Source: Saprospiraceae bacterium
GTDB taxonomy: Bacteria; Bacteroidota; Bacteroidia; Chitinophagales; Saprospiraceae
Direction: 5' to 3'
Assembly: GCA_007121335.1 (NCBI GenBank)
Contig: SKLY01000096.1
Span: 1 to 53,817 of the forward strand
Length of the DNA stretch: 53,817 bases
Shown here: positions 6,033-53,817 of the stretch, one piece after another
Numbering within the stretch: position 1 is the stretch's first letter
How the letters are laid out: every line of letters starts with the position of its first letter
Notes under the pieces: generated by a model
Seen by the model: the letters and a program-made list of their open reading frames with translations, nothing else
Databases searched by the model: none
Told to the model about the DNA's origin: nothing
Program-made: the position numbers and the translations under genes

Positions 6033-9000
6033 ATGTTGATTCGGATTGGAATACTGGCCTGCTTTCTCTGCATATCTGCCACCCTGTTCTCCCAGGGAAG
6101 GATAGCGGATGAGGAGTTTGGTAAAAACAGGGTGCAGTACCACGATGACTTCAGTAACTGGTGGCGCTATGAGGCGGACAATGTCATCGTTTTCTGGTAT
6201 GGAAAAGCGCGGAATATTGCCGAAGGTGCCTTTCAGATTGCAGAGTACGACTACCCGGAAATTCAAGCCGCACTCCAGCACAGGATCAATGAGCGAATTG
6301 AGGTCATCGTTTATACCGATATTACAGACCTAAAGCAGAGCAATATTGGTTCGACCGAGCTTTTTGAGGTGCAAATAGGGGAGACAAAAATTGTCGAAAA
6401 CAAGGTATTTGTCTATTTCAACGGCAGCCATTCCGACCTCCGAAGACAGATCAGGGAGGGACTGGCCCGGGTTTTTATTGACCAAATGGTGTTCGGCTCC
6501 AATTTTCAGGAAATGATACAAAGTGCCCTGGCCGTGGACTTCCCGTTTTGGTTTAAGGAGGGGTTGGTAGCGCATGTGGGAGAAATGTTCAATTACGAAG
6601 ATGACAGCCGGTTTCGCGATAAGTTTTTGAATCAGGAGCCGGAAGAAATTGAAGATTTAATTGACTGGGACCCCCGGATTACCGGCAAGGCATTTTGGCA
6701 CTACCTCACCCTTCACTACGGAAGAGCTACCATTGCAAATATTCTATACCTGACTCGAATCAACAGGAATTTGGAAAACGGATTCCGGTTTGTGATCGGA
6801 AAGTCTTTTGACCAGGTCAAACGCGAATTTTTTGAATACTACCAATCCAATTACAAAGAGGAATCCAAACGCTTTACCGGAGGCGTCTCTCACAGAGAGG
6901 TCAGCGGATTTATCAATCGGCATGATGCCGAGATTATCGACATAGCCATCAGCCCCGATGGCAGCCGGGTAGTCTATGTCGAGAATGAAATTGGCCGCAA
7001 TCGCGTGTTTTTACATGACCTGAATACCGGAGATCGCTCGGTATTGTTTCGCGAGGGTTTTAGAAACCCCTTTCAGGACCCGGATTACAATTACCCCAAT
7101 GTCAGATGGCATCCTGACGGAGACAAACTCATGATACTGTACGAGAGGCGGGATGTTATCTACTTCAGGGAGTACGACCTCAGTACTGAGGAGTATCAGG
7201 AACAGGAGATCAACCCCATTTATCAGCGGGTGTACAGTTTTGACTACTTCGATGAGCGGACTTTGGTGCTGGCTGCCACCACGGACGGTTTTTCCGACCT
7301 TTATTTGTACGACCTCCCCACCCGGCAGTCAAACAGATTGACCCGCGATATATACGATCACAAATGGGTAACCTCTTTTGAAAGGGACGGTGAGAGAGGA
7401 ATACTTTTTTCGTCCAACCGGCAGACTACCTCCCTCGAGAGAAAGCGGCGAGATACCATATTGCCCTTTGATCCCTTCAACCTGTTTTATTTGGATATAT
7501 CGGGAGAGGCAGACAGCGCAGTACAGTTGACCGAATCAGCTTCCTCGGATGAAACCCTTCTAAGACATTCCGGTGGAAATCACTTCCACTTTTTGAGCAA
7601 TTATAATGGAGTAAATAATATTTACCGGATGGCATTGCCGGGTGCCGGGGAAGAGGATGAAAATTACCCGGTGTCAGTGAGTGGCAGGGCCCTTACCAGC
7701 ATGCCTGCAAACATCACCACTTTTGACTACCGGAATGGCACCCTGATATTCACTAAAATACAAGGGGGTACACCCACACTTTTCCGGGCGGAAAGTCAGG
7801 CGGTACAGACCATTTCACCCAATCCGACCATTTTGCGGACCAAATTACACGGAGATATCAGTATAGAGTTGGAACCGGTTCCTTCTAAACAATTTGATCC
7901 CGAAAAAATAAGCGATGGTCAGCGTTTTCAAAGTCGATTTGAAGATCCACCGCAGATGCCCTTCACCAAGGAGGAGCCCTTCCTCCTTCAGCGCGGTGAC
8001 CAGCGTCGCATGGTGAGCAAGTCATTGGCATCAGTGGATAAAGAAGTAAAGCGTTTTAGGTCAGCCCGGGCCATTGCTTCCCGTCTGCACTTCAGGTTTG
8101 AGGAGGTATCGACGAGTTTGGACAACAGTCTGCTGTTCAGCGGTCTGGATGCATATTCGGGCATACAGGAGGGATTTGACGTGCCACCGGTGGGTATTCT
8201 AATACGAACAAGGGCATTTGATATATTCGAGGATTACATCTTTGAGGGAGGTGTGAGGATTCCGACTTCATTCAACGGCTCGGAGTTTTACCTGATTTTC
8301 GACGATAACAAAAGGCGATGGAACAGGCGCTACGCCATTTACAGGAGGTCGCGTACAGAGCGGGAGCCCGCCAGATTTGGCTCATTTGATCAGGAAAAAA
8401 ACACCACCCATATTTTTCAAAACCGCTGGACTTATCCCTTCGATATTTTCCGGTCGGTACGCTTTACCGGAACCCTGAGGCTGGATCGCTTTATTTCTCA
8501 ATCCACCTCCATAGAGTCACTTGAAAGACCCGATTTCAACCGGCAGAGTTTTGGATTGAGGGCAGAGTATGTTTTTGACAACACCTACGATGTACTTATC
8601 AACATCAAAAACGGAACCAGGTATAAGTTCTATGTCGAGGGAGTAAATCAATTCAGGGTGCAATTTTCACCCTGGGAGTTTGATGCATCCTCGGGCTTTA
8701 TGACTGTCATCGGATTTGATGCGCGACATTACGAGCGGATACTAAAGCATTCGATCATTGCCGTGCGCGGTGCCGGAGCCACTTCACTCGGGTCGGAGCG
8801 AATACTTTTTTACATGGGCGGAGTGGAAAACTGGTTCTCACCCGGCTTCAATCAAAATATTCCCATACCACAGGACGAAAAGTTTGCCTACCAGGCCATG
8901 GCACTCAATATGCGTGGTTTTGATCAAAATATTCGCAACGGGACCTCTTACCTGGTACTCAATACGGAGTTGCGAATGCCACTGTTTCACTATTTCTCGA

Positions 9001-9302
9001 GAACACCACCCCGGTCCAATCTGCTGAACTCGTTCCAACTAGTCGGGTTTTTTGACCTGGGCTACACCTGGTATGGTTCAGATCCCTTTGACGGCGACAA
9101 TCCACTCAATTCAGCCACCATCAGCAACCCCGTCAGTACCATTGAAGTGGAGTATTTCAGAGATCCGGCCGTAATGGGATTTGGCTTCGGATTCAGGGCC
9201 AAATTGTTCGGTTACTTTTTCAGAGTGGATCGCGGTTGGGGCGTCGAGACCCGCCAAATCCAGGATCCCAGGTGGCACATCAGCATGGGTTTTGACTTTT
9301 AA
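6033..9302 (+). CDS. TolB-like propeller / outer-membrane barrel protein with decayed peptidase-like domain
   Basis: A 1089-residue exported protein of a kind often labelled 'translocation protein TolB' in Bacteroidota. An N-terminal signal peptide (about residues 1-21, ending near LFSQG) is followed by a region resembling gluzincin 'peptidase MA-like' domains (about 30-270, with FWFKEGLVAHVGE). Then come WD40/PD40-type beta-propeller repeats (ISPDGSRVVYVENE, VRWHPDGDKLMILY; about 285-620) and a C-terminal beta-barrel-like half ending in aromatic Phe (WHISMGFDF). The place where an HExxH would be expected reads IREGLARVF, so zinc protease activity is doubtful. It stands alone with about 175 bases before it. 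Role unknown; outer-membrane location is inferred. Confidence 0.75.
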   Translation: MLIRIGILACFLCISATLFSQGRIADEEFGKNRVQYHDDFSNWWRYEADNVIVFWYGKARNIAEGAFQIAEYDYPEIQAALQHRINERIEVIVYTDITDLKQSNIGSTELFEVQIGETKIVENKVFVYFNGSHSDLRRQIREGLARVFIDQMVFGSNFQEMIQSALAVDFPFWFKEGLVAHVGEMFNYEDDSRFRDKFLNQEPEEIEDLIDWDPRITGKAFWHYLTLHYGRATIANILYLTRINRNLENGFRFVIGKSFDQVKREFFEYYQSNYKEESKRFTGGVSHREVSGFINRHDAEIIDIAISPDGSRVVYVENEIGRNRVFLHDLNTGDRSVLFREGFRNPFQDPDYNYPNVRWHPDGDKLMILYERRDVIYFREYDLSTEEYQEQEINPIYQRVYSFDYFDERTLVLAATTDGFSDLYLYDLPTRQSNRLTRDIYDHKWVTSFERDGERGILFSSNRQTTSLERKRRDTILPFDPFNLFYLDISGEADSAVQLTESASSDETLLRHSGGNHFHFLSNYNGVNNIYRMALPGAGEEDENYPVSVSGRALTSMPANITTFDYRNGTLIFTKIQGGTPTLFRAESQAVQTISPNPTILRTKLHGDISIELEPVPSKQFDPEKISDGQRFQSRFEDPPQMPFTKEEPFLLQRGDQRRMVSKSLASVDKEVKRFRSARAIASRLHFRFEEVSTSLDNSLLFSGLDAYSGIQEGFDVPPVGILIRTRAFDIFEDYIFEGGVRIPTSFNGSEFYLIFDDNKRRWNRRYAIYRRSRTEREPARFGSFDQEKNTTHIFQNRWTYPFDIFRSVRFTGTLRLDRFISQSTSIESLERPDFNRQSFGLRAEYVFDNTYDVLINIKNGTRYKFYVEGVNQFRVQFSPWEFDASSGFMTVIGFDARHYERILKHSIIAVRGAGATSLGSERILFYMGGVENWFSPGFNQNIPIPQDEKFAYQAMALNMRGFDQNIRNGTSYLVLNTELRMPLFHYFSRTPPRSNLLNSFQLVGFFDLGYTWYGSDPFDGDNPLNSATISNPVSTIEVEYFRDPAVMGFGFGFRAKLFGYFFRVDRGWGVETRQIQDPRWHISMGFDF

Positions 9303-34054: not shown

Positions 34055-37000
34055 GTGATGTCTGGCGATGGTCATTTCAAGTTTTTACTTAAATCAATGC
34101 AAGTAATTGCTTTGGCATGCACCGTAATGATATTCACACCCCTTATCACCTTTTCTCAAGTTATTTTTGTGGATCATTCTGCTGACGGCTCCAATGACGG
34201 TACTTCCTGGGAAGATGCATATTTGGACCTGCAAGATGCCTTCCAGGTTGCAGTATTTGGTGATGAAATTTGGGTGGCCGGGGGTACTTATTACCCCACC
34301 TCTAATGAAGGAGATCGTTCAGCCAGATTTGTGTTGCCTGATGGAGTAGCATTGCTGGGAGGTTTTGGAGGCTTTGAAGTAAATTCATCTGAGCGTAACA
34401 TTGGCTTATTTAGAACCACGCTAAGCGGCGATATTAACAGGACGGCCTCGCTTTACGGGAATTCTCATACCATACTCGATATATCCCATACCAGCAATGA
34501 ATCATTGGTGGATGGGTTTACAATTTTTGGTGGAAATGCGGAAATAATTGCCGCCGATGGTTATCCCAGAAACAATTCAGGAGGTGGAATTTATAACAAT
34601 GGAGGAAGTGCAACCATCGCAAATTGCGTAATATCCGGTAATTCAGCCAATCAGGGGGCCGGTATGACAAATGTAAACGCGGCCAATGTTTACATGGTCA
34701 ACACTGTGTTTAGGGACAATAAAGTAATCGTTCCCGGTGGCGGTGGGGGATTGTTGAATGCCGATGGGTCACGTCTTGAAATTGTTAACTGTACTTTTGA
34801 TGGGAATTCCTCTCAAACCACGGGAGGTGCTATTCTCAACCTGAACAATTCCGTCCTGTATATTCAACAATCTGATTTTCTTAACAACCAGGCTATCAAC
34901 GGTGCTGCTATTTATTGTTTTCTAAACTCCCGGATAGAAATATCAAGGTCTGTTTTTCAGGGCAATCGTGCTATTGCTTTCGGAGGTGTAATAGCTTCTG
35001 TTTTACATAATCAAATACACATCGACAATTCTGTCATTACCGGAAACATAGCAAAAAATGGTGGGACATTCTACGGGGAAAAAAGTCATTTTGACCTGTA
35101 CAACATTACAGCAATTGGAAATGCTGCTCATGCAAAAGGGGGCCTTCTTTTTGACCAATTAAACTCTACCTTCAATTTTTATAACAGCATCCTTTGGGAA
35201 AACAAATTGGGTGACACCGAATCTTCACCATTGGAATTTTTCTACAGTGCCGGGGATAACAGCACTCTTGGATTTTATCACTCCATTGTTCACGGTTCCG
35301 GAGGTAGTGATGATTGGAATGTCGAAGGAGCTATTGATGGGGGTGGCAATCGCGATTTCGATCCCAAACTGGTCGCAAGCTTAAATGCTATTCACGCGCC
35401 TTCTACTTATGGGGATTATCGACTCACGGAATGCTCTCCTGCTGTTAATTTTGGCAGAAATTACTACACAGATGGAATTTCTTCAGTGGACATTGAAGGC
35501 AATTATCGGATTATTGATGGGATTGTCGATATGGGTGCGTATGAGTTTGATGATGAAATTCCACCTCCTGAGATTTCCTGCAAAGAAATTGCCATTCAAT
35601 TGGAGACCAATGGAAATATATCTCTCCCTGTCAATGATCTTTTTGTGGTTATTGATTCCTGTGGTCCGGTAGAAGGACAGATATTCGGTATGGATTCTCT
35701 TGTGCTTGATTGTTCCAGTATCGGCATTAATTATTTTACCGTCTATGCATTGGACCTCTTCTCGGAAAAAGTTGATTCCTGCGAACTCAAGCTGGAAGTG
35801 TTGGAACCCACCTATCGCTTTACCATCAATGGAATAGAAGTACATCCCGGAGATGAGCTCACTTTTTGCCCCGGAATACCCTTGAAACTGGCATTGCATA
35901 AATCTTTTTCCAAATCGGTACCAATAATATCCGATTTCAGACTCGGCATGGAAACTGTGCACAAGGATATTCTATTGGATTATGAAGATGACTACTTTGA
36001 GTTTTTAAAAGAGGAGGAAGGAGTTTATCCACTTACTTTTCTCTCAATTGAGGATGAAAATGATTGTGTGTTGGGGGAAGATCGTGCTTCGCAATACTTT
36101 TTCTTCATCAATATCGAATTCTCTGCGGATACCACTTTGCTAACAAACAAGCTTTGCAGAGGAGATTTTTTCAGAGGTAGAATGATCAGCAGTGATACGG
36201 TATTCTACAGCACATACTCCAATCTAAGGGGCTGCGACAGTATTGTTATTGACAATATTGAGGTGTTTGATTCACCGGAACTCACCTTAGAGGCTGACAG
36301 TGTAATTTGCAGTGGATCATATGCTCAAATTACCGCCCCGGAAGGCTTTATTTCTTACGAATGGGACAAAAACTCTGAGGATGTCAGGCAAATTCAGGTT
36401 TACACTGGTGGATTTTACAGCATCACCGCCCGGGACGAGTTCGGCTGTCAATTTGAGGAGGAGATTTATATTATGGAGCCAACACCCATTGATGCTGAAA
36501 TTAGGGTACAGCCTACTACATGCCCCAGTTCTGAGGATGGAGTTATTCAACTGAAATGGATTTCCCTGGACGAGGGAGATTTTGCATTCTCTATCAATGA
36601 TGAGATGATTCCGCCCCCTTATATTTTCAGCGGTTCGACAGGCTTATTTTTTCTCGGTATTGAGGATCAATTCGGCTGCCGGTATGAAGAGTGGATTGAT
36701 ATTGACTACCAGGTCGATCCCTTTGTGGAAATAATGGGTCCTGCCGAAATTGAATTTGGCGATTCCCTGATTTTGTGGGCGAATACCAACCTTCCACAGC
36801 CCGACTTTGCTGAATGGCTCTTGAATGGACAGCCCGCAGGAAATGGCTTGACGCTTGGTGTTCTGCCCGATGATGACCTCGTTGTTGAGATTGAGGTAAT
36901 TGGACCCTCAGCCTGTCGCGCTACTGCCCTGTTGAATGTTGAAGTGTACGAACCGGCTCAGGTTTTTATTCCCAATGCCTTTTCACCCAATCGAGATGGA

Positions 37001-37243
37001 ATCAATGACTTTTTTACCGCCTTTGCCGATGAGGATTATCTGATTGAAAAGCTTCTTATCAAGGACAGATGGGGAAATACGCTGTACCGCGTTGAAGGTA
37101 TCCCGGCGAATATGCCGGAACTGGGGTGGAATGGTGAAATTAACGGCCAGGTCGTGAATCCGGGTGACTACCTCTACCTGATTGAGCTAAGAGATAGCCG
37201 GGAACTGCATCAATTCAGCGGTACGGTTACCCTGTTGAGATAG
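34055..37243 (+). CDS. Large secreted beta-helix protein with type B T9SS sorting domain
   Basis: A 1062-residue exported protein. After a signal sequence (about 15-35) comes VDHSADGSNDGTSWEDAYLD, the usual lead-in of polymorphic-outer-membrane-like beta-helix proteins. Right-handed parallel beta-helix repeats follow (about 120-430, with N-G-G-rich turns such as NNSGGGIYNNGGSATIANC), then the choice-of-anchor Q motif CSPAVNFGRNYY...DMGAYEF (about 452-500). Ig-like/SprB-type repeats with paired Cys occupy about 500-960, and the C-terminus has the gliding-type (CHU_C) tag VFIPNAFSPNRDGINDFF ending GTVTLLR. It is exported by type IX secretion and likely surface-bound; adhesion or polymer binding is inferred only. 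Confidence 0.9.
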   Translation: MMSGDGHFKFLLKSMQVIALACTVMIFTPLITFSQVIFVDHSADGSNDGTSWEDAYLDLQDAFQVAVFGDEIWVAGGTYYPTSNEGDRSARFVLPDGVALLGGFGGFEVNSSERNIGLFRTTLSGDINRTASLYGNSHTILDISHTSNESLVDGFTIFGGNAEIIAADGYPRNNSGGGIYNNGGSATIANCVISGNSANQGAGMTNVNAANVYMVNTVFRDNKVIVPGGGGGLLNADGSRLEIVNCTFDGNSSQTTGGAILNLNNSVLYIQQSDFLNNQAINGAAIYCFLNSRIEISRSVFQGNRAIAFGGVIASVLHNQIHIDNSVITGNIAKNGGTFYGEKSHFDLYNITAIGNAAHAKGGLLFDQLNSTFNFYNSILWENKLGDTESSPLEFFYSAGDNSTLGFYHSIVHGSGGSDDWNVEGAIDGGGNRDFDPKLVASLNAIHAPSTYGDYRLTECSPAVNFGRNYYTDGISSVDIEGNYRIIDGIVDMGAYEFDDEIPPPEISCKEIAIQLETNGNISLPVNDLFVVIDSCGPVEGQIFGMDSLVLDCSSIGINYFTVYALDLFSEKVDSCELKLEVLEPTYRFTINGIEVHPGDELTFCPGIPLKLALHKSFSKSVPIISDFRLGMETVHKDILLDYEDDYFEFLKEEEGVYPLTFLSIEDENDCVLGEDRASQYFFFINIEFSADTTLLTNKLCRGDFFRGRMISSDTVFYSTYSNLRGCDSIVIDNIEVFDSPELTLEADSVICSGSYAQITAPEGFISYEWDKNSEDVRQIQVYTGGFYSITARDEFGCQFEEEIYIMEPTPIDAEIRVQPTTCPSSEDGVIQLKWISLDEGDFAFSINDEMIPPPYIFSGSTGLFFLGIEDQFGCRYEEWIDIDYQVDPFVEIMGPAEIEFGDSLILWANTNLPQPDFAEWLLNGQPAGNGLTLGVLPDDDLVVEIEVIGPSACRATALLNVEVYEPAQVFIPNAFSPNRDGINDFFTAFADEDYLIEKLLIKDRWGNTLYRVEGIPANMPELGWNGEINGQVVNPGDYLYLIELRDSRELHQFSGTVTLLR

Positions 37244-49604: not shown

Positions 49605-50426
49605 ATGAAACTCAACTTGACAAAAGACCTCTGTTTTTTGGATATTGAAGCCACCGGACTGCACGTAATTCGGGACCGAATCATTCAATTGGGAATGCTT
49701 AAATACAGTCCGGGGAAGAGCGAGCCTGAAGTACTCGACATCCTGGTGAATCCCGGCAAACCCATCTCTAAAGAAGCCATTCAGGTGCATGGAATTACAG
49801 AAGATGATGTGGCAGAAAAACCTTCTTTCTCCGAATATGCGGATGAGGTGATGGAATTCATTGGGGAGGCCGATCTGGCGGGTTACAATATATCCGGTTA
49901 TGACCTTCCCATGCTGATGGAAGAGTTATACCGCGCAGGTCATGAGCTGAATATGGAAAACCGGAAATTGGTGGACGTCCAGCGCATTTTTTACAAAATG
50001 GAACCCAGGAACCTGGGAGCTGCCTACCGTTTTTACTGTGGAAAAAACATGGAAAAATCTCATGAAGCCATGGCCGATGTGCGCGCAACCGCTGAAGTAC
50101 TAATGGGGCAGCTTGAAAAATATGAAGGAGTAGATTTGGAGACCGATGACGGAACGGTAATCGAGGAGCCCGTTCGAAACGATGTGGAGGCACTGCATAG
50201 CTTTACGCGAGATTACAATATGATTGATGCCACCCGAAGATTAAAGTACAATCACAAAGGGGAAGTGGTATTTAATTTTGGAAAATACGCCGGAAAACCT
50301 GCAGCTCCCATATTGAGCAAAGACAAAAATTACTACAATTGGATATTACAGAAAGATTTTTCCTATCAGGTGAAGACCATGGTCAAAAAACTGGTCAAAG
50401 AATACCGGGAAAACAATGAAGAATAG
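49605..50426 (+). CDS. DEDDh 3'-5' exonuclease, DnaQ/PolC-type
   Basis: A 273-residue exonuclease with the DEDDh active site: LCFLDIEATGL (Asp and Glu of motif I, about 9-19), AGYNISGYDLPML (motif II), and SHEAMADVRATAEVL (His and Asp of motif III). The C-terminal part, after about residue 180, is charged and has VVFNFGKYAGKPAAPILSKD, a segment often found after this domain in Bacteroidota. A role in DNA repair or proofreading is likely; RNA substrates remain possible. The GTG start at 49554 was rejected. A perfect short inverted repeat TTCACT-TT-AGTGAA lies at 49545-49558. The next gene overlaps it by 11 bases. Confidence 0.92.
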   Translation: MKLNLTKDLCFLDIEATGLHVIRDRIIQLGMLKYSPGKSEPEVLDILVNPGKPISKEAIQVHGITEDDVAEKPSFSEYADEVMEFIGEADLAGYNISGYDLPMLMEELYRAGHELNMENRKLVDVQRIFYKMEPRNLGAAYRFYCGKNMEKSHEAMADVRATAEVLMGQLEKYEGVDLETDDGTVIEEPVRNDVEALHSFTRDYNMIDATRRLKYNHKGEVVFNFGKYAGKPAAPILSKDKNYYNWILQKDFSYQVKTMVKKLVKEYRENNEE

Positions 50427-51228
50427 GTTTTTTTTATTGGCTTTTGGTGGGCTGATGTTGCCGCTGTTTTTTTCTTCCTGCTACGAGCGGCAAGAGGGCT
50501 GTACAGATTTTAATGCAGTGAACTTCAATGCTTCCGCAGATGACAACTGCTGTTGCAATTATCCGGAATTCAGCTTTCAACTCCAACACCGGTTCGGACC
50601 AGACAGTGTGCGATTTTTTACCGATTCTGTCTATACTCTTGACAATGGACTTGAGGTAAACATTCTTTTCCTCGAACTGCTCGCCAGTAATTTTTTTCTG
50701 GAACAAGAAAGTGGTGAGCGTCAAATGGTAGAAAACACCCTGGAATTCTCCTCTGTGGATGGCATCTCATGCCCCTGTACCGACGACTTGTTTATTATTG
50801 ACCCCAATTCCTTCAACGCTACCCCCGGCGAAATATCCCGTCCCTGGACCTATACGGGACTTGGCTTTTCATCCGGCACCCCGGAGGAATGGCAGGTTTT
50901 GACACCAGATGATTTTGAAGATGTTTACCCCCTGGCGCAGGATGAACGTTATGACGCAGAAGCGATGGATTTTTATTCCCTGAGGGCGGTGATTGCCTTT
51001 CCCAATGCCACTTCAGAACCTGTAGAAATAAATATCCCTGCCTGGCGCTCAAGCCTGTTTTTTGAAGAGAACCTCAGCCTCCAAACAGCTGAAAACTTCT
51101 CCGTTATACTCAGGATCAATTACAAAACCTGGTTGGGCGGATTGAATGCCGGAAATGTGAGTGAGGATACCCTGGTTGATCTTTTTACCAACAACCTGGA
51201 GGACGCTCTTGAGCTGATATTGAACTAA
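50416..51228 (+). CDS. Hypothetical lipoprotein, possibly MbnP-like
   Basis: A 270-residue lipoprotein with signal MKNRFFLLAFGGLMLPLFFSSC and Cys22. The early mature part is Cys-rich: GCTDFNAVNFNASADDNCCC. Later text such as FSFQLQHRFGPDSVRF and YTLDNGLEVNILFLELLASN resembles the start of MbnP-type copper-binding-linked proteins, where a short strand pattern leads into 'isnl'-like wording, but the match is weak. It overlaps the exonuclease gene by 11 bases and is probably co-transcribed with it, although their roles look unrelated. Confidence 0.68.
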   Translation: MKNRFFLLAFGGLMLPLFFSSCYERQEGCTDFNAVNFNASADDNCCCNYPEFSFQLQHRFGPDSVRFFTDSVYTLDNGLEVNILFLELLASNFFLEQESGERQMVENTLEFSSVDGISCPCTDDLFIIDPNSFNATPGEISRPWTYTGLGFSSGTPEEWQVLTPDDFEDVYPLAQDERYDAEAMDFYSLRAVIAFPNATSEPVEINIPAWRSSLFFEENLSLQTAENFSVILRINYKTWLGGLNAGNVSEDTLVDLFTNNLEDALELILN

Positions 51229-51466: not shown

Positions 51467-53817
51467 ATGAAAAGAGTTGTACTTACACAGCTAATTGGAT
51501 GCTTATTTTTAATTGGCATTACACCTTTCGAGAGTCATGCAGAGGTTGGTGAAAATTCGACCAATGCGACTTACAAACTCGTTTGCCCTGACGATGTACA
51601 TTTGACATGCGGAGCGGATTTAAGTGATTTGAATCAGTACGGTCAGGCTTACATTTACGGTTGCGGCACACCTTATCCTGCACCGCCTCCACATGTTGAA
51701 TACAATACCAGTCCCTGCGGAACAGGTTATATTAAAAGAACCTGGACGGTAATGCTTTGCTGTGGCACTTATCACAGTTGCAGCCAGTATATACATGTTT
51801 ACGGCAAGTCATTTGACAGTGATAATATTATTTGGCCGGCAGATTATATGACTGATGAATGCGATCCACAGCTCAGACCGCAGCACTTACCTGACAGCTT
51901 TAATTTTCCGGTATTTGTCGATGTAGAATGTGGGAATCCTCTATTTAGTTACAATGACCGGGTGTTTAAGAAAGGGGATTCAGGCTGCAAAAAAATCATT
52001 CGTGATTGGACAGTAATTGATTGTTACACCTACAATCCAAATTCACCGGATCAAAAGGGCAGGTGGGAACACACCCAGATTATCAAGGTTAAAATCATGG
52101 AGGAGCCGGAAATAAATTGTCCCGACGAGATCATAGCAAACACCGATTTATTCAGTTGCGATGGTGCGGAGGTGGATTTTCCTGCTGTTGAAGGCACCGG
52201 TGCGTGTGGTGAGGATTTGAAAGTGACGAATGATTATCCATGGGCGGTATCGAATACCGATGCAAGTGGATTTTATCCACTGGGAACTACGGTGGTGACA
52301 TTTACTGCTAAAGACGGCTGCGGGAATGTGGGAACTTGCAAAACTGAAGTAACCGTAAAAGATCAAATACCACCGACACCTGTTTGCCACCACGGGATTT
52401 CATCCACACTGAAAGAGCACGTGGATGGATATTATTTGGATCTTGATCCTAAGTGGTTTGACAGAAACAGTTTTGACAATTGTACTCCAAACAGCGAGCT
52501 GACTTTTGAAGTGTCGCCTGAGCGGGTATTTTGCGATGACCTTCCAGAGGTGGAAGTTAAATTAACAGTGACCGATGAATCCGGCAATAGTAATTACTGC
52601 ATCACCTATTTGAAAATAACTGACAACAAAGGACTCTGTGGACCGGACTCTCTTATTGCAGGGGGAACTATTTCTTCTACATTGGGAGGTCAATTGGCCG
52701 GACTGGTATTTGTTTCTCTAAAAGATGGAAATGATGAAGTGGTTGCAGAGACTATCTCAAATGGTGATGAGTTTCGCTTTGAGGAATTGCCATCCAGAGA
52801 TTATCTAAAGGTCATTCCCTCCACCAATGACATTCCGCAAAATAATATCACAACTTTTGACCTGTTGCTCTTGCACATGTATATAGCAGGATTGTGGGCT
52901 CCGGAAAGTCCATCCCAATTACTGGCAGCCGATGTAGATATGTCCGGCACCATTGATGTGATGGATCTTGCACATATGAGAAATGTCATTCTGGGTAGAG
53001 TAGATAATTTCCCGGGAGGGGATGCGTGGAGATTTTACGATGCAAATCACAGTTTTAATGATCGTCAGAACCCACATCACGACAACCTGCCAGGACTGAT
53101 TGAATTATTTGATTTTGAGGATCACACCATGGGAATAAACTTCAATGCGGTAAAGCTGGGTTGTTTAAGTTGTCCGGACCAGTCAGATGCTGATGCCGGA
53201 AGCGAAAACCGGTCCATGACTGAGCAGGCATTTTCAGTAAATATTACCTCAAGTGATGACGTTCAACCCATTATTCTTTCACCGGTTGAAAATTCCTCCA
53301 TCTACGGACTGCAATTTGCATGGCCCCTGGGAAAAAACAATGAATTGTTAGAGATAAATTCTGAAAGGATTCCGGAATCGGCACTCCACTACCAGGTAGA
53401 TGATCAAAACAACCTCAGGGTGAGCGTGGCGAATACTGCCAAAATAGATATCAAAAAGGGTGAACCAGTACTCGAAATAGTGCTGGCCGAAAATCCGATC
53501 ACATGGTCTTCTGAAATACTTGACAACCAAATTTACTCCAACCTCGCTGAGTCAGACAAGCTTGTGTTTGAAGTATTGGAAAGCGAAACAGGAGGAGACA
53601 TAGCACAGCGCGGATTTAGTGTTTTTCCCAACCCTGCCAATGGTATATTAAATATTGAATTGCCTGAGATAGATGCCGTTGAAAATACCGCAAGGGCAGA
53701 AGTGTACGACCTGAATGGTCGACTTGTAATGTCTCGCTCTTTTGACATACATGGTCAGGGCGGTGAACTACTTCAAATGGATATTGAAAGCCTGTCTGCA
53801 GGAATGTACCTTATTAA
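51467..53817 (+). CDS. Secreted HYR/dockerin-like protein with type A T9SS sorting domain, 3' end cut off
   Basis: The frame is open from the ATG at 51467 to the window edge, 783 residues. A signal peptide (about 1-25) is followed by a Cys-rich region with repeated WTV motifs (TWTVMLCCGTYHSC, DWTVIDCYTY), then a HYR domain at about 213-300 (EINCPDEIIAN, ending with GTCKTEVTVKD). A dockerin-like EF-hand stretch AADVDMSGTIDVMDLAHMRN is at about 487-506. A cohesin-like segment is at about 590-685 (IYGLQFAWPLGKNNELLEIN). From about 712 the Por secretion tail starts, FSVFPNPANGILNIELPE, and near the edge reads LSAGMYLI. The protein is exported by type IX secretion; only a few residues seem to be missing. 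Confidence 0.9.
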   Translation, partial: MKRVVLTQLIGCLFLIGITPFESHAEVGENSTNATYKLVCPDDVHLTCGADLSDLNQYGQAYIYGCGTPYPAPPPHVEYNTSPCGTGYIKRTWTVMLCCGTYHSCSQYIHVYGKSFDSDNIIWPADYMTDECDPQLRPQHLPDSFNFPVFVDVECGNPLFSYNDRVFKKGDSGCKKIIRDWTVIDCYTYNPNSPDQKGRWEHTQIIKVKIMEEPEINCPDEIIANTDLFSCDGAEVDFPAVEGTGACGEDLKVTNDYPWAVSNTDASGFYPLGTTVVTFTAKDGCGNVGTCKTEVTVKDQIPPTPVCHHGISSTLKEHVDGYYLDLDPKWFDRNSFDNCTPNSELTFEVSPERVFCDDLPEVEVKLTVTDESGNSNYCITYLKITDNKGLCGPDSLIAGGTISSTLGGQLAGLVFVSLKDGNDEVVAETISNGDEFRFEELPSRDYLKVIPSTNDIPQNNITTFDLLLLHMYIAGLWAPESPSQLLAADVDMSGTIDVMDLAHMRNVILGRVDNFPGGDAWRFYDANHSFNDRQNPHHDNLPGLIELFDFEDHTMGINFNAVKLGCLSCPDQSDADAGSENRSMTEQAFSVNITSSDDVQPIILSPVENSSIYGLQFAWPLGKNNELLEINSERIPESALHYQVDDQNNLRVSVANTAKIDIKKGEPVLEIVLAENPITWSSEILDNQIYSNLAESDKLVFEVLESETGGDIAQRGFSVFPNPANGILNIELPEIDAVENTARAEVYDLNGRLVMSRSFDIHGQGGELLQMDIESLSAGMYLI

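Follow-up and report, generated by a model that had tools for sequence, protein, structure and literature searches.

A dockerin and a cohesin within one chain of a T9SS cargo protein, and a putative noncellulosomal cohesin-dockerin system in Saprospiraceae

When a single exported protein carries both a dockerin-like and a cohesin-like part, what does the dockerin bind? Dockerins and cohesins join the parts of cellulosomes, and most of what is known of such pairs comes from clostridia; bacteria and archaea also have cohesins and dockerins outside cellulosomes. The question is raised by a gene at the end of the window, by which we mean the whole 53,817-nucleotide stretch that was analysed, the entire contig G000:C183 of a 3.14 Mb draft Saprospiraceae genome. 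The original prediction was that proteins of this kind may link to one another outside the cell and form a scaffold without cellulosome enzymes.

The open reading frame (51467-53815, + strand, as are all its parts below) encodes 783 amino acids, and the contig end cuts off about 20 more plus the stop codon, which are present in the close orthologs L060 (98% identity) and L061 (86%). From N to C terminus, a signal peptide and an HYR/Ig-like part are followed by a CnaB-like domain and a dockerin and then, after a conserved linker, by a cohesin fold and a T9SS type A tail, an annotation based on the sequence and on orthologs L060-L064. The signal peptide, MKRVVLTQLIGCLFLIGITPFESHA (51467-51541), was recognized by eye, its boundary is an estimate, and it is kept in the orthologs. 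The HYR domain (aa 212-297, 52100-52357; PF02494, 1.4e-5) is flanked by further Cys-rich, Ig/HYR-like stretches, and this N-terminal part probably has an adhesive role. A CnaB/carboxypeptidase-regulatory-like beta domain (aa 398-453, 52658-52825), with five strands in the AlphaFold model, immediately precedes the dockerin; CarboxypepD_reg was matched in 65 of 72 relatives. The truncated sorting tail (53621-53815) matches PF18962 at 5.6e-10 and TIGR04183 with 26.7 bits against a cut-off of 23, bearing out the type A tail that had been predicted. Signal peptide and C-terminal domain together mark the protein as a predicted T9SS type A cargo. Pfam finds no catalytic or CBM domain in it, in line with the proposed lack of cellulosome enzymes.

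Other genes of the window also encode candidate exported or unclassified proteins. A second T9SS cargo (34055-37240) matches Pfam only in its type B (CHU_C) tail, and the products of 6033-9299 (1089 aa) and 50416-51225 (270 aa) have no Pfam match at 1e-5. The 270-aa protein, encoded just upstream of the dockerin-cohesin gene, has a Cys-rich N terminus.

The dockerin is of type I-like, two-repeat form (52841-52990). The segment first likened to half a dockerin, AADVDMSGTIDVMDLAHMRN, is its second repeat, with a canonical loop of the pattern D-x-D-x-S-G-x-I-D-x-x-D (DVDMSGTIDVMD, aa 489-500, 52931-52966), identified from the sequence and the paralog alignment. The first repeat, NNITTFDLLLLHMYIAG, is there too, in a degenerate form in which most acidic ligands are gone, and both repeats align with those of the paralogs. 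On the protein alone, Dockerin_1 (PF00404, aa 460-508) reaches 18.2 bits, short of the cut-off of 22.9; a frame-based search gives it 23.7 bits, and it was matched in 71 of 72 relatives. The PDB sequence matches of this part are dockerins (including 4uyp_B and 5nrk_B), and the AlphaFold model contains the dockerin helices. The window protein has the two repeats, each a calcium loop and a helix, that PF00404 describes. Across the relatives, the first calcium loop is atypical, with Leu at loop position 5. With one canonical loop, we regard the domain as a putative calcium-stabilised dockerin. It is followed by a conserved dockerin extension or linker (52991-53206), which reads WRF...VK.GDVN in relatives and AWRF...AVKLGCLSC in the window protein.

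The cohesin part (aa 586-706, 53222-53584) is recognized by its fold. The cohesin Pfam profile PF00963 gives no match in the window protein up to an E value of 10, and it matches 64 of 72 relatives, at best with 9.8e-13. VIA-align superposes model residues 194-316 on 1ohz_A with Z 11.3 and an rmsd of 2.7 over 119 aligned residues, and on the Archaeoglobus fulgidus cohesin 2xdh with Z 10.1; the upper rows of the match list are nearly all cohesins, in a comparison that used whole-module models, whose match lists are filled by the cohesin part. A typical family member's cohesin reaches Z 11.7, and the family profile matches both PDB dockerins and PDB cohesins. We conclude that the window protein contains a predicted cohesin-type jelly-roll beta-sandwich. 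The segment IYGLQFAWPL had been taken as the start of such a domain; it does belong to a cohesin, but as an inner strand (the beta-3 equivalent), and the domain begins at FSVNITS, near aa 586.

Structure prediction of the module as a whole gave dockerin helices and the cohesin fold in one confident unit. For the window protein (320 residues, 79 sequences), the mean pLDDT was 83.6 and the pTM 0.79, with confidence lowest (<50) at 180-189, the joint of dockerin extension and cohesin; a typical member (350 residues) gave a pLDDT of 94.1 and a pTM of 0.89. From the pTM formula, a freely placed cohesin, which makes up about 40% of the residues, would hardly allow a pTM above 0.65. Both values are too high for free placement, so the cohesin is predicted to be packed as one unit with the rest. 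One further structural match came from BFVD entry A0A6J5M064, labelled as uncultured Caudovirales phage and carrying a T9SS sorting tail, which matches the whole module (TM 0.61, 369 columns); it is either mislabelled bacterial DNA or a phage-borne cargo.

The same pair of parts recurs throughout this genome and its family. In fourteen proteins of this genome, the window's included, the order runs from a CnaB-like domain through dockerin and linker to a cohesin-like domain and a sorting tail, and the beginning of a contig truncates a fifteenth paralog of the module. Within the family, the window protein is divergent: its first loop is degenerate, GCLSC replaces GDVN, and cohesin positions W282, N283, and E323 are altered. 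Its orthologs are 98%, 86%, 45%, 44%, and 36% identical over the full length, and in the last three the linker ends in GDIN, GDLN, and GDIN, which argues that the window module is a diverged version of the ordinary one. The coexistence of both parts in one chain, as originally predicted, thus holds in the paralogs and orthologs alike. We rejected a chance resemblance because of this shared order in 14 proteins, the orthologs down to 36% identity, and the cohesin fold.

How far does the module extend? A public-genome search returned 80 loci; those that could be placed are from Saprospiraceae/Saprospirales and their kin (Lewinella, Aureispira, Phaeodactylibacter), and the remainder are labelled just Bacteroidota or Chitinophagales. 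The module is present in 89 of 100 Saprospiraceae genomes at an E value of 1e-30 and in 226 of 248 sampled genomes of the family at 1e-50. With about 15 copies in this genome as well, we dismissed the idea of a single isolated oddity. A distribution across Bacteroidota at large was likewise rejected, as a phylum-wide draw that scored few candidates per genome found the module in 7 of 296 genomes, two of them outside the family. Full enumeration in five genomes gave 12 dockerin-cohesin modules in this one (G000), 27 in G369, 15 in G368, 23 in G396, and 5 in G338, plus 3, 6, 5, 1, and 2 matches, respectively, to the dockerin part only; two of the three in this genome carry a cohesin too diverged for the profile. 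A plasmid search gave one weak, N-terminal match. One paralog of this genome (L161:3-9749, contig C62) is very long, with cohesin-like domains at the N terminus, a dockerin-cohesin module at the C terminus, and many HYR-like stretches besides.

Does the dockerin pair with the cohesin of its own protein? The spacing is almost invariant. Among 342-347 relatives, the two dockerin loop ends lie 35 residues apart (34-35 in all), and loop 2 lies 118 residues from the cohesin Gln (interquartile range, 116-119); along the module, the linker Trp, the Lys, and the cohesin Gln follow in steps of 21, 42, and about 55 residues (∼345 sequences). Recognition positions are kept in the relatives: T85 in 96%, R127 in 84%, Q241 in 99%, and E323 in 92%. 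We take T85 and R127 to be dockerin repeat positions 10 and 17, recognition positions as in 1ohz, and G239/Q241 to correspond to N37/D39 of the Clostridium thermocellum cohesin. Mean-field couplings were computed from 325 sequences (Meff 259), a low depth for such an analysis. The strongest dockerin-cohesin couplings were T85-E323 and R127-N283, and the coupled positions were T85, R127, G132, and S84 on the dockerin and E323, N283, Y319, and G239 on the cohesin face. The top two scored 175 and 161, compared with at most 98 in five shuffled pairings, though shuffling breaks relatedness along with pairing, and relatedness inflates coupling scores. Pairs between dockerin recognition positions and the cohesin face were enriched among strong couplings (12 of 602 versus 32 of 8176, P = 2.7e-5), a value that is not fully independent, since positions and face were chosen, from known complexes, after a first look at the couplings. 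The CnaB domain showed no coupling enrichment with the same face (P = 0.92). Altogether, the co-variation is moderate evidence that dockerin and cohesin of one and the same protein pair up, be it inside one chain or across identical copies.

Dockerins and cohesins also occur apart in these genomes. The dockerin-only form is a trypsin-like protease of 560-700 aa that stops just after the dockerin extension and has neither cohesin nor T9SS tail; it is found in 51 of 100 family genomes at an E value of 2e-77 or better. The copy in this genome (L160:1518-3437, contig C131) matches Trypsin_2 at 1.4e-6 and Dockerin_1 at 3.5e-10, and 29 of 30 retrieved copies, one of them read through an N stretch, end after the dockerin extension (relatives, L439-L467). 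The cohesin-only form, of about 265 aa, has a single cohesin between its signal peptide and a type A tail, and it stands alone in 37 of 100 family genomes. In 30 loci, the one-cohesin gene is followed on the same strand by a further cohesin ORF, with at least two cohesins visible in 29 and one in the short thirtieth. Another one-cohesin protein of this genome (L162:3358-5943, contig C245) has, as read by eye, a type A-like tail and what look like SprB-like repeats.

The longer cohesin proteins carry tandem cohesins, then SprB repeats, then a CHU_C type B tail, with three cohesins in this genome, 9-10 in two others, and 3-10 overall. The gene after that of this genome (on contig C272) is PorP_SprF (2.5e-46), and a PorP_SprF-like gene follows wherever the sequence reaches far enough, the Pfam assignment having been made in this genome only. 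With tandem cohesins and a predicted cell-surface anchor, the C272 protein is scaffoldin-like. Pfam finds no catalytic or CBM domain in it or in the window protein, so these two do not fit the definition of a cellulosome, in which dockerins bring plant-cell-wall enzymes to a scaffoldin that has a carbohydrate-binding module. The conserved locus (L347:6499-14895 in this genome; also L342-L346, L348, L349, and L351) comprises a LuxR-type response regulator, a dockerin-cohesin T9SS-A protein, an optional one-cohesin protein, the tandem-cohesin T9SS-B protein, and PorP/SprF. Regulator and dockerin-cohesin gene lie upstream in this genome, G004, G003, G396, and G368; in G356, the dockerin-cohesin gene is missing between the regulator and the cohesin genes, in G369, it is there and the sequence ends before the regulator, and in G338, the contig starts at the one-cohesin gene. 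The free cohesins keep Q241, W282, and E323 and differ from the fused ones at 283, 319, and 322. G369 also encodes a protein of 1319 aa (L350:4120-9312) that has several cohesins plus a type A-like tail and is directly followed by two small dockerin-only proteins, of which at least the first has a signal peptide.

The reading that we prefer, and to which we give about an even chance, is that the window protein, a T9SS type A cargo that is secreted or stays at the surface, has a C-terminal module in which a dockerin is docked, within one chain, on the cohesin that matches it. Stabilised by calcium, the dockerin would use the face known from other cohesin-dockerin pairs, and CnaB, dockerin, linker, and cohesin would thereby form one compact, stiff stalk holding the probably adhesive HYR/Ig-like part beside the sorting tail. 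The fused module corresponds to the dockerin end of the protease plus the cohesin and tail of the one-cohesin protein. Parts found both fused and apart usually bind each other, which suggests that the dockerin sits in its own cohesin. By the same logic, the module would be a covalently joined plug and socket that the family also keeps as two proteins, with the dockerin-ended, tailless protease and the tail-bearing cohesin proteins as its inter-protein version, in which free dockerins may bind free cohesins. Constant spacing, confident single-chain packing, and co-variation between dockerin and own cohesin together favour docking within rather than between identical chains. However, a swapped dimer or a fibre of identical chains would leave the same co-variation and the same monomer-model signal.

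That ambiguity is one reason to take seriously the linking originally proposed, in which the dockerin would bind the cohesin of another chain, or the tandem-cohesin surface protein, and build an extracellular network without cellulosome enzymes. The T9SS-B proteins with their adjacent PorP/SprF gene in this and other genomes, the 30 loci (one seen in part) where a one-cohesin gene directly precedes a tandem-cohesin ORF, the dockerin-cohesin genes just upstream of cohesin genes in several loci, and the dockerin-only protease in half the genomes are all consistent with it. However, the nearly constant linker, the confident single-chain packing, the differences between free and fused cohesins at 322 and at two positions that co-vary, 283 and 319, and the 12-27 fused copies in four of the five enumerated genomes, all of them provided with a cohesin of their own, fit it poorly, and we consider it rather unlikely for the window protein. 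In the wider family, a scaffold gains plausibility from the tandem-cohesin T9SS-B proteins and the dockerin-only protease of the same genomes, so that proteins encoded outside the window lend the original idea partial support. Alternatively, dockerin and cohesin might be inert, calcium-stabilised stalk domains that do not bind through the cohesin-dockerin face. Strings of Ig-like spacers are common in T9SS cargo, the first calcium loop is atypical throughout the family and degenerate here, and the window cohesin lacks several family residues. A mere spacer seems improbable, as T85, R127, Q241, and E323 are kept and co-vary across the expected face, and dockerin-only and cohesin-only proteins persist separately across genera. 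It would be more surprising still if the own-chain pair were a resting state, from which the dockerin could exchange onto the tandem-cohesin surface protein upon, e.g., a change in calcium or force; fused and free forms do coexist, as neighbouring genes in some loci, but the face of the free cohesins is partly different.

How does this compare with known systems? The clostridial type I pair of C. thermocellum (1ohz) shares both domain families, the cohesin fold (Z 11.3-11.7), and co-variation on the corresponding face. In contrast, both halves here lie in one chain at fixed spacing, export is by T9SS rather than by a Gram-positive route, and the window protein has no cellulase or CBM. The C. 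thermocellum double dockerin dDoc_0689 is presumably that of entries 8x39/8x3a. This protease-associated protein is believed to be anchored to a scaffoldin at the cell surface (PMC12484212); it resembles the Saprospiraceae protease in being a secreted protease with dockerins, whereas the latter has one CnaB-dockerin unit, and its possible partners are T9SS-exported cohesins. Archaeal noncellulosomal proteins (A. fulgidus ORF2375/2376, 2xdh, and those of ANME) also use cohesins and dockerins outside cellulosomes: A. fulgidus has a strongly binding pair (PMC9705933), and ANME have chains in which several cohesins accompany one dockerin (PMC9012536). Saprospiraceae belong to another phylum and use another export route, and here one dockerin and then one cohesin precede the sorting tail, in many copies per genome, with separate tandem-cohesin proteins. 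Clostridium perfringens cohesin modules (2jh2, 2w1n, and 2vo8) are likewise found in secreted noncellulosomal proteins, but in glycoside hydrolases. T9SS type B proteins bind a PorP-like partner at the surface (PMC9143113), and the tandem-cohesin protein, with its CHU_C type B tail and neighbouring PorP_SprF gene, resembles SprB/SprF and PG1035/PorP in this respect; it differs in the three to ten cohesins ahead of its SprB repeats.

Each domain is of a known family, and what looks new is the arrangement, the export route, and the conserved locus. The Saprospiraceae set is not described in the literature searched, which covered few subscription papers, so the novelty is provisional. Judged from these genomes, it looks like an undescribed noncellulosomal cohesin-dockerin system exported by T9SS in Saprospiraceae. 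A larger picture, which we offer tentatively and at clearly less than an even chance, is a T9SS-exported assembly system in which an outer-membrane-anchored tandem-cohesin scaffold would be joined by a dockerin-ended protease, a T9SS-A protein with one cohesin, and dozens of fused adhesin-like proteins, the window's included, that may open to join the scaffold. The parts of the module are short enough for direct expression and testing. The system also raises the question of how a protease without a T9SS signal is exported; a signal-bearing cohesin might hold it or even carry it. If this picture is true, plug-and-socket assembly would extend to a different envelope and a non-cellulolytic role, in gliding Bacteroidota.
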